Positions 1 to 4,143 of a stretch of DNA of 7,192 nt are shown here, in pieces. Position 1 is the stretch's first letter. Each line of letters opens with the position of its first letter. The notes beneath the pieces are model-generated. The model was not told the DNA's origin. It saw only the letters and a list, made by a program, of their open reading frames with translations, and made no database searches. Origin of the DNA: Candidatus Altarchaeota archaeon (GTDB lineage Archaea > SpSt-1190); assembly GCA_030590165.1 (NCBI GenBank), contig JAUUZA010000033.1, forward strand, positions 1-7,192, given 5' to 3'. Both the position numbers and the translations under genes were made by a program.

Positions 1-1
1 A

Positions 2-917
2 AAGAAATTTAAGGAATTTACTGAAGAAATAGGTAAGGTTTTAGTGGGATATGAAAGGGTTTCAGAAAGTTTGTTTACGGCACTTCTTTGTAATGGGCAC
101 ATTTTATTGGAAGGCCCCCCCTGGGGTTGCAAAAACAAAATTAGCTAAAACCTTTTCAGAGCTTGTTAGTGTTGGTTTTAAAAGAATACAATTTACGCCA
201 GATTTACTGCCAACAGATATTGTTGGAACTATGATGTTTGACCCCAAGAAAGGAGAATTTAAGATAAGAAAGGGACCGATTTTTACAAATATGGTTTTGG
301 CTGATGAAATAAATAGAGCAAGTCCAAAGACTCAAAGTGCCCTTCTTGAAGCGATGGAAGAAAAGCAAGTAACTATTGAAGGAACAACTTACAAATTAGA
401 TGCACCTTTTCTTGTTATGGCAACTCAAAATCCAATTGAACAAGAAGGAACATATCCATTACCTGAAGCTCAGCTTGATAGATTTTTGTTTAAAGTGAAT
501 GTAGCTTATCCAAATAAAAGTGACGAGGAAAAGATTGTTAAAAAAATAGTTGAAAAAGCAGGAGTTAATTTAAAGGCCCTTTTTGAGAAATCAGATATTT
601 TGAGCTTAAGAAAAAATATTGAAAAGATTTTTGTGTCTGAAGAGATTATTAAATATATTACTCAGATTGTAACTAAATTAAGGGAAAGCCCTGTTGTTGC
701 GTGGGGGCCGAGTCCGAGGGCGTCAATTGCGTTGATGAATGTGGGGAGGGCTTCTGCATTTCTTGGTGAACGCAATTTTGTTTCACCTTTAGATGTAAAT
801 AAATTTGCAATTGAAATTTTGAATCACAGGATTGGTATAAAACCAGAGAATGAAATTGAAGGAGTTACAACAAAAAGTGTAGTTTCAGATGTGTTATCTC
901 AGGTGGACACAATATGA
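2..917 (+). CDS. MoxR-family AAA+ ATPase, 5'-partial, frameshifted in Walker A
   Basis: The product is a MoxR-type AAA+ ATPase, a family thought to act as a chaperone that uses ATP to remodel or activate vWA/DUF58 partner proteins. Reading begins in the frame of base 2 ([16 protein letters not shown], then GHILLEG), which matches the family N-terminus, so only a few codons lie outside the window. At the seven-C run 115-121 the family match jumps by one base to the frame ending at 917, giving PPGVAKT of Walker A. The methionine at 51 opens a shifted, meaningless N-terminus and is not the real start. Later motifs are intact: Walker B LADE (297-308), sensor 1 ATQNP (420-434), the arginine-finger LDRF (474-485) and sensor 2 GPSPRA (705-722). 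The stop overlaps the next start as ATGA (914-917). Taken literally, the gene is broken; a one-base sequencing or assembly error is the simpler reading. Family assignment is firm, the biological target unknown. Confidence 0.9.
115..121 (+). other. C7 homopolymer at the MoxR frameshift
   Basis: Seven consecutive Cs lie between the codons for Glu-Gly and the TGGGG that completes Pro-Pro-Gly of Walker A. Six Cs would give an uninterrupted EGPPGVAKT. With seven, the upstream frame reads on into a TAA at 146-148. Such a long C run is unusual in this AT-rich sequence, and homopolymers are the classic site of both indel sequencing errors and true slippage mutations. Confidence 0.85.
901..906 (+). 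promoter_or_regulatory. Shine-Dalgarno site of the DUF58 gene
   Basis: AGGTGG ends 7 nt before the ATG at 914 and matches the archaeal anti-SD complement GGAGGTGAT over AGGTG. It lies inside the last codons of the MoxR gene, consistent with translational coupling. Confidence 0.65.
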
Positions 918-2545
918 AAAAACTTTCTAAGGAATTATTAAAAAAATTTTTTATAGGGACACTCCTTTTTTTGTTTTCATTTCTACCTCTTAGAGAGACC
1001 TTATTAAAACTTAGTTTTACTAATAGCACTTTTGATTTCTTTTTTGTTCTTTTTGCAATAGCTTTTCCTCACATTATTCGTTCAATTGCTATAGCAATTA
1101 TAGTTAGTGTTATTTTCTTTTCTTTAAAGTCAGTTGCTTTACCTAGGGGAGTTATTGAAAAAGAAATTTATAAACTCAAAAAAAGACGTTTTTTCAAGAA
1201 TTTATTTTATGGTACAATTTTAATTGGTCCGTTAATTTTTCCTTTTAGGTCAGGAATAATTATATTTAATATACTTTCAAATTTAGTTTCGTTTTCTCCT
1301 TATTTTAGTTTTCTAAGTTTTTTACTTTTACCTTTCAGTTTTATGGACCTTACTTTATTTTTAGAAGCACTTTTAATTTCCTTCTTTTTACTTCACTTAT
1401 TAAAAATTATTAGTGTGAAATTTGGGACAGTAATAATTAAAACAAAAAATAAAGTAATTGAAGAAGGAAAAGAAAGTGAATTTATTGTTACTGCTGAATC
1501 ACGTATCCCTTTATTTTGTTTTTTTATGCCACCTTTTAAAATGAAAGTTAGAGTTAATAAGGCAAATTTTATTAAAACAAAATATGAATTAATATTGAAA
1601 AAGAAATTTCCGATTGGATATTATCGTTTAGATATTCTTCAATTTAGAATTGCGACCTTTCCTTTCTTTTTTTCAACAGTTTTTAAAACAGTTTCAAATT
1701 CAGTGGAATTAACAGTTCTCCCAAAAATAAAGATGAAAAATGTACTTTATTCTAAAAATCCTTTTGCTGCGCGTGAAACTGGAGATTTGGTTAAACGGGT
1801 AAGTGGTGGTTCTTTAGAATTTTCAGGAATAAAAGAATTTTCTCCGGGAGACCCAGTTTCAAAAATTTGGTGGAAAGGTCTTGCAAAAGGCGGGAAATTA
1901 CTTAAAAAAGATTTTTTCAGTTTAGCTGAAGATAGGTGGATTTTGATGGTTGACTTGTCCAATCCAAATATGTCAAGAAAAGATGAAGAGACTCTTCTTA
2001 CTTTTTCGCGAGCATTTGTGGAAACATTCACCAGAAAGGATATTGAAATTGGAATTCACATAATTTCTCCAAATGCGTCGACAATAAAATATTCAACAAA
2101 GAAAAGAGAGTTGATGTCCTTTTTGATTAAACATTGGCACGATTTTAAACATTTGAGTTATAAGGGGTCTAAACTAATTTTAAAGGATGCAGTTGGGAAT
2201 ATTGAAAATATTGAAAAAAGATGTAAGGCAAGTGGGATTTCTTTGTCTTCATTTGTATATTATGCAGGTTTAATTAAGAAACCTAAGAAAACATTTTATT
2301 GGGGAAGAACAAAAATATTTAAGAAAAATTTAAAATCATTTACTACCACTTTAAAAAAGAGTGGAAAAATGTTAGTGGTTACTGCAGGAATGCCTGAGGA
2401 TTTAGTTGACGAAATTAAAAAAGTAGCAAGAGTGAAAAAATGTCCAGTTCTTTTTGCGAGCCTTCAAAAAGTTCCAAAGGCACGAACTTTTATTATTCCA
2501 AAACAACACCCAGAAAAAATGATATGGAGGTTAATGTATGCTTAA
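914..2545 (+). CDS. Membrane-anchored DUF58 (vWA-like) protein
   Basis: This 543-residue protein has a strongly hydrophobic N-terminal third, with at least four membrane segments near residues 10-26, 42-72, 96-124 and 131-165. A likely beta-rich domain follows at about 170-270. The DUF58 signature then appears: [16 protein letters not shown] at 299-314, followed by [10 protein letters not shown] (the family form is roughly I-x-W-K-x-x-A), then a KLLKKDFF strand. The predicted vWA-like fold starts at MVDLSNP with Asp347 and Ser349. A true MIDAS would read DxSxS, and here the last position is Pro351, so metal binding is doubtful. The last vWA-like strand is [12 protein letters not shown] near the C-terminus. 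DUF58 proteins are the usual genomic partners of MoxR ATPases, and the 4-nt overlap with that gene fits a shared complex at the membrane. The start is supported by AGGTGG 7 nt upstream. The molecular role of the family is poorly defined, and none is assigned here. Confidence 0.88.
2526..2531 (+). promoter_or_regulatory. Shine-Dalgarno site of the mini membrane protein
   Basis: A perfect GGAGGT lies 6 nt before the ATG at 2538, inside the final codons of the DUF58 gene. It is the strongest ribosome site in the window and argues that the short downstream frame is really translated. Confidence 0.75.
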
Positions 2546-2720
2546 TTTATTAAAAAGAGTAGTTGGAGAATTGTTTATTTTATCTATTTTAATTGAAATT
2601 GTTTATTTTTTGCTTCTTGGTCTTGAGCCTCTTTCTTTTCATCAAAGATTGACAGTTATTTCGTTTATTTTAATTATTTTAGCTTATTTTATTACACGCT
2701 TTCACAAACAAAAAAGGTGA
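2538..2720 (+). CDS. Small two-helix membrane protein of the MoxR-DUF58 operon
   Basis: This is a 60-residue hypothetical protein of no recognised family. It has two hydrophobic helices, about residues 11-29 (containing ILIEIVYFLLLG) and 38-54 (containing ISFILIILAYFI), joined by a short loop EPLSFHQR. Basic residues occur at both ends (K6, R7, and C-terminal RFHKQKR), so the positive-inside rule predicts a hairpin with both termini in the cytoplasm. A glutamate (E20) sits within the first helix, an unusual place that could serve packing or contact with a partner helix. The gene overlaps the end of the DUF58 gene by 8 nt and has a perfect GGAGGT 6 nt before its ATG, so it is very probably expressed and coupled to it. 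A role as a small subunit or stabiliser of the DUF58 membrane module is inference from position alone. Confidence 0.72.
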   Translation: MLNLLKRVVGELFILSILIEIVYFLLLGLEPLSFHQRLTVISFILIILAYFITRFHKQKR

Positions 2721-2721
2721 T

Positions 2722-2729
2722 TTTATAAA
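2722..2729 (+). promoter_or_regulatory. TATA box for the HMG-CoA synthase gene
   Basis: TTTATAAA is a near-ideal archaeal TATA box, preceded by a purine-rich stretch (AAAAAAGG, 2710-2717) that could serve as the TFB recognition element. Its centre lies about 24-25 nt before the GTG at 2750. Transcription would therefore start at or within a few bases of the start codon, giving a leaderless mRNA. Confidence 0.65.
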
Positions 2730-4069: not shown

Positions 4070-4143
4070 TGCGGCTGCCGGGATTTGAACCCGGGTCACT
4101 AGCTTGGAAGGCTAGGGTCCTAGCCAGACTGAACGACAACCGC
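4070..4143 (-). tRNA. tRNA-Gly (anticodon TCC)
   Basis: The minus strand folds into a full 74-nt cloverleaf. The acceptor stem is GCGGTTG with CAGCCGC (one G-T pair). The D stem is GTTC with GGAC around a 10-nt loop, and the anticodon stem CTAGC with GCTAG frames the loop CTTCCAA, so the anticodon is TCC and it reads GGA (and possibly GGG). A 4-nt variable loop TGAC follows, then the T arm CCGGG-TTCAAAT-CCCGG. The discriminator base is A, as in archaeal and eukaryotic tRNA-Gly, where bacteria normally have U. There is no intron, and CCA is not encoded: the next bases on this strand are TTTTAC, a weak T-rich end. It is convergent with the HMG-CoA synthase gene. Confidence 0.96.

Follow-up and report, generated by a model that had tools for sequence, protein, structure and literature searches.

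With vWA proteins as partners, MoxR ATPases remodel the complexes they target or bring them to maturity, as described for NorQ/NorD (PMC9976466) and RavA/ViaA (PMC10585395), and the best-worked precedent for such a pair is NorQ/NorD, in which the MoxR ring receives the vWA domain as a plug (PMC9976466). In the Bat (Bacteroides aerotolerance) operon MoxR is found with DUF58 and vWA proteins (PMC5700661), and the PFNA operon of bifidobacteria (pkb2, fn3, aaa-atp/MoxR, duf58, tgm) encodes a secreted FN3 protein along with MoxR and DUF58 (PMC8430577). How does the archaeal locus analysed here compare with these systems? Like NorQ/NorD and RavA/ViaA it pairs MoxR with a vWA protein, and maturation or remodelling of a membrane complex is proposed for it as well; unlike in these two systems, its vWA protein has an N-terminal membrane region of its own and is accompanied by four further membrane or exported partners. 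With the Bat operon it shares the combination of MoxR with DUF58 and vWA, and BatA/BatB/BatD-type genes were not detected in the cassette by Pfam, a search behind which remote relatives may remain. The PFNA operon resembles it in gene content, as a beta-sandwich protein that is secreted and has a transmembrane segment occurs there beside MoxR and DUF58 (PMC8430577); the cassette has genes 2, 3 and 6 as extras, and its proteins gave no Pfam match to a transglutaminase or a Ser/Thr kinase. No description of this six-gene cassette was found in the literature searched.

The window, that is the whole stretch of 7,192 nucleotides that was analysed, belongs to a 0.72 Mb archaeal genome of SpSt-1190, a DPANN phylum with the alias Candidatus Altiarchaeota (PMC10936187). 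It makes up the whole of contig C63, whose first bases already lie within the MoxR gene. An earlier examination of these letters alone (the sequence-only reading) proposed a minimal three-gene membrane module of MoxR, DUF58 and a small hairpin protein; further partners were not seen in the window because the contig starts inside MoxR. The last 21 bases of C14, another contig of the same genome, are exactly the first 21 of the window, indicating an assembly break, and at the end of C14, upstream of MoxR, lie three more cassette genes. As three tightly packed genes also precede MoxR in all relatives with sequence there, the idea of a three-gene module has to be given up. The real unit consists of six tightly packed genes with the hairpin gene last, and it is found in small (DPANN-type) archaea. 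In order, the genes encode a surface protein with an anchor, a membrane protein of 145 aa, a helical protein that is exported, MoxR, a vWA/DUF58-like protein anchored in the membrane, and the hairpin (Table 1), and overlaps of 4, 8 and 50 nt occur inside the cassette. The overlap of genes 2 and 3 measures exactly 50 nt, out of frame, in the tabulated family genomes and in the Aenigmatarchaeota genome G501 and so spans two phyla; it is located at 10278-10327 of L051 in the window's own genome and at the same place in L019, L020, L021, L023 and L044. In the relatives no common gene lies 3' of the hairpin gene, hence the unit ends with it, as the sequence-only reading had supposed. The new promoter which that reading placed directly behind the hairpin gene is a weaker case: TTTATAAA is compatible with a promoter and may mark the likely end of the unit, at a frequency in the window little above expectation. 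Further downstream, a tRNA-Gly gene (tcc; 4070-4143, minus strand) is located between the genes for HMG-CoA synthase and a P-type ATPase.

Table 1. Features of the MoxR, DUF58-like and hairpin genes in the window.
Feature	Position	Strand	Remarks
MoxR AAA+ ATPase (gene 4 of 6)	1..917	+	PF07726 8e-63, AAA lid PF17863; 5' end on C14
DUF58-like protein (gene 5 of 6)	914..2545	+	543 aa, divergent; AlphaFold model, vWA match, sub-threshold Pfam
Shine-Dalgarno-like GGAGGT	2526..2531	+	6 nt before ATG; doubles as W-R codons of the DUF58 C-terminus
Hairpin gene (gene 6 of 6)	2538..2720	+	ATG to TGA, 60 aa, two-helix membrane protein; 8-nt overlap with gene 5
TTTATAAA, candidate archaeal TATA box for the next gene (HMG-CoA synthase)	2722..2729	+	2 in window vs 1.1 expected

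The cassette was found in six of seven family genomes, in 3 of 156 Aenigmatarchaeota genomes and in one further lineage, where the contig end cuts it short. Gene 3 and this DUF58 subfamily occur together, namely in the same three of the 156 Aenigmatarchaeota and in the same six of ten genomes of the window's own phylum, while in G002 neither of the two was found. Among 394 sampled archaeal genomes this DUF58 type was detected only in the window's family, and gene 3 there and in G227. This last genome represents a third archaeal lineage (L065, G227:C109) that carries genes 1-4 and the first part of gene 5; it stands outside the hairpin counts given below, as its contig ends within the DUF58 gene before the hairpin slot is reached.

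MoxR is assigned well above the Pfam cut-offs (AAA_3, PF07726, 210.6 bits versus 27; lid, 60.1 versus 22.7). In the window its frame is broken by a run of seven C near position 115 (window 100-140), within the P-loop codons, and the open reading frame is called only from position 51. The frame is intact in the orthologues of the relatives, and the break could be a homopolymer error of assembly or sequencing near the contig end or a real frameshift. The product of gene 5 is called DUF58-like because its PF01882 score is below the gathering cut-off (12.5 bits versus 23.4; 22.7 for the best homologue). The sequence-only reading's assignment to DUF58 is thus borderline by Pfam and agrees with the modelled vWA fold. 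An AlphaFold model of modest confidence (pLDDT 62.9 overall) shows a helical membrane region at about residues 1-170, a beta domain at 172-269 and a vWA domain at about 335-543. Residues 335-543 of the model superpose on a vWA structure with a Z score of 14.5 (145 residues aligned, 2.7 Å; Foldseek E 1e-4) and on BatB (3ibs) with a Z score of 12.5 (151 residues, 3.2 Å), and as modelled the C-terminal domain is a vWA domain behind N-terminal membrane helices. Its MIDAS motif DxSxS is incomplete, reading DLSNP in the window and D-x-(S/T)-x-(P/E) in the homologues. Profile searches with the DUF58-like protein and with gene 1 against PDB sequences yielded nothing useful.

The proteins of genes 1 and 3 both have an N-terminal hydrophobic segment of the export type and a C-terminal hydrophobic anchor. 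The 525-residue product of gene 1 has conserved cysteines and a C-terminal helix with RKWL behind it; its ectodomain looks beta-rich, the term Ig-like being a reading of the alignment, and two gene 1 orthologues gave no Pfam match. In the Aenigmatarchaeota gene 1 is PLD-like, with two PLDc_2 stretches (1.6e-31 in G501), in both genomes with sequence at this place. There is thus an exchange of payload, in which gene 1 changes while the core of the cassette stays constant. The PLD-like form is encoded in L044 (6675-7907, minus strand) and L043, the Ig-like cysteine-bearing form in L051 (8322-9899), and gene 1 of G227 again has an Ig-like look. Gene 2 encodes an N-terminal helix with a soluble tail; a resemblance to DUF4129 seen by eye was unsupported by Pfam. 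The 332-residue protein of gene 3 has a mostly helical ectodomain, and as its model is poor (pLDDT 52.5, too low for a structure search), any role given to it is a guess. Genes 2, 3 and 6 match no Pfam family at the curated cut-off.

Is the small frame behind the DUF58-like gene a gene at all? The frame itself, its overlap with the DUF58 stop codon at 2545, the GGAGGT with its spacing, the two helices and the basic ends are all found where the sequence-only reading had placed them, positions 2526-2537 being leader. The hydrophobic segments comprise residues 13-29 and 38-54, as called by a simple Kyte-Doolittle scan rather than a trained topology predictor. Sixty residues are a short frame, and the TGG-AGG of the DUF58 C-terminus yields GGAGG unaided, both of which would fit a frame that is open by chance or that comes with the DUF58 3' end as a by-product. 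The ribosome site emphasised in the sequence-only reading is present, and as a motif it is not rare (three GGAGGT in the window versus 1.8 expected); GGAGG is retained before the frame in all four hairpin loci of the SpSt-1190 family, in which the arginine of the conserved DUF58 'WR' is written AGG, a codon used for only 10-21% of the arginines there. Whole-genome searches with the 60-aa protein gave matches in G005 (E 1.8e-7), G001 (2.1e-5) and G004 (0.003), each immediately 3' of the DUF58-like gene, which it overlaps by 8, 4 and 8 nt, respectively; archaeal MAG records exist for four family relatives (JAAOXU01, JAAOXW01, DSCG01 'SpSt-1190' and WAMX01). All six pairwise alignments of the family hairpins score z 6.8-10.1 against 1000 shuffled sequences of unchanged hydropathy pattern, and identity at codon positions 1, 2 and 3 is 0.40, 0.69 and 0.34, a pattern which, judged from the sequences, is that expected of a coding frame under constraint at the protein level. 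Invariant in the four family hairpins are L2, K6, R7, G10, Y23, L26 and S33. The buried glutamate E20, for which conservation had been expected, is not among them and aligns with Q, Y and Q in the other members. A chance frame is refuted by the protein-level conservation, the coding codon pattern and a length and position that are kept over divergent genomes, and practically no weight is left for it. The hairpin frame is a genuine gene that belongs with the MoxR and DUF58-like genes.

The linkage extends beyond the family. A scan of named genomes with an alignment of the DUF58-like proteins revealed a relative of 32% identity in an Aenigmatarchaeota MAG (JAGMCY010000121.1), and a search of 156 genomes of this phylum added two more. 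In all three a two-helix frame of 62-68 aa follows +3 to +26 nt behind DUF58. Short two-helix frames directly behind DUF58 genes of related archaea, which the sequence-only reading had proposed to look for, were thus found at seven of seven loci of this subfamily with an intact DUF58 3' end, four in the SpSt-1190 family and three in Aenigmatarchaeota, with two hydrophobic segments in each and lengths of 57-68 aa; absence or decay of the frame in relatives with the MoxR-DUF58 pair was not observed at any of them. The contigs of G003 and G006 end inside DUF58, and both genomes are left out of this count. Could the hairpin nevertheless be a mere neighbour, such as a membrane peptide of toxin-like or stress type that is independent of MoxR and DUF58? 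Toxins are known among two-helix peptides of such length. The three Aenigmatarchaeota hairpins are strongly alike (z 12.5-14), and between them and the hairpins of the window's family no significant sequence similarity was found (z about 0; hhalign E 0.13, probability 0.4%), so that no relationship is detectable between the two sets of frames, as independence would allow. Against it stand the linkage at all seven loci and the lack of a convincing copy outside the cassette in 156 Aenigmatarchaeota genomes, in which a profile of the Aenigmatarchaeota hairpins gave strong scores (about 1e-33) for none but the three copies in the cassettes, the remaining matches, in eight other genomes, being marginal (E 0.001-0.01) and taken as noise. 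An independent peptide is therefore considered improbable. Across both phyla the slot, the size and the two-helix build are conserved, and common descent of the hairpins is likely from synteny and position alone, without support from the sequences. Searches with the hairpin against PDB sequences found nothing (best E 1.4). A match to the TM0026 family membrane protein (NF050182; 20.5 bits, E 5e-4) was rejected against the NCBIfam cut-off of 100 bits and is absent for the hairpin orthologue L020:7012-7188.

For comparison, 12 loci with generic archaeal DUF58 genes were inspected, Pfam-positive for the ten that were scanned. At nine of them (L007-L011, L015-L018), which come from five genomes and are thus not nine independent cases, the next gene starts with a 4-nt overlap and encodes a nearly all-hydrophobic protein of 136-273 aa with 5-6 segments and without Pfam family; none of these nine is a two-helix protein. 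This 5-6-helix protein is apparently a general, unnamed partner of archaeal DUF58. Generic operons and the cassette therefore agree in that DUF58 is followed immediately by a Pfam-less membrane protein whose start overlaps or abuts it (for the hairpin an 8- or 4-nt overlap in the family and the short spacing in Aenigmatarchaeota). They differ in that the cassette partner has 2 segments and 57-68 aa in place of 5-6 segments and 136-273 aa, and in that the generic DUF58 passes Pfam and has about two N-terminal helices, whereas the cassette DUF58-like protein is divergent and has a larger membrane region. A membrane partner behind DUF58 is ordinary, and the variant found here pairs a two-helix partner with a DUF58-like protein of larger membrane region; one may speculate that helices were redistributed between DUF58 and its partner.

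What could the hairpin do? It is probably the final subunit of a membrane machine encoded by six genes, a small two-helix subunit of the DUF58 membrane part. It would occupy the slot held by the 5-6-helix protein in other archaeal DUF58 operons, would be made beside DUF58 through translational coupling and may lie packed on the membrane helices of DUF58, as a subunit that serves stability or insertion; gene 2 would, like the hairpin, provide a membrane subunit of the machine. Alternatively, the hairpin could be a small regulator, such as an inhibitor or stability factor of DUF58 or of MoxR turnover. Regulation of larger membrane complexes is a frequent task of small two-helix proteins, and the very small size, fast divergence and last position of the hairpin would suit such a role. 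The hairpin is present in every intact locus, translational coupling is predicted in the window's family, both of which fit a stoichiometric subunit better, and a larger membrane protein holds the same slot behind other archaeal DUF58 genes; a regulator is accordingly held to be a minority possibility. For the hairpin as a subunit, the contact with DUF58, the use of ATP and a role at the surface are argued by analogy: on the cytoplasmic side the MoxR ring would dock on the vWA domain in the manner of NorQ on NorD, and MoxR may spend ATP on the assembly, gating or maturation of the surface proteins that genes 1 and 3 encode. The extracellular target would then vary with gene 1, Ig-like and cysteine-bearing in the window's family and two-domain PLD-like in Aenigmatarchaeota.

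MoxR-vWA pairs are widespread and their membrane clients are known in only few cases. The cassette offers candidate clients in genes 1 and 3 and, in the hairpin, the smallest membrane partner, within a strictly linked six-gene set that has a constant core and a surface protein varying from Ig-like to PLD-like. A bolder and, in our judgement, unlikely reading would see in it an undescribed ATP-driven machine for surface display or assembly in symbiont-type archaea, in which genes 2-6 (MoxR, the membrane vWA protein, the hairpin and two membrane adaptors) would form the core, gene 1 would be an exchangeable payload for cell-cell contact, be it an Ig-like adhesin or a PLD-type enzyme, and the hairpin would be the smallest dedicated membrane subunit.
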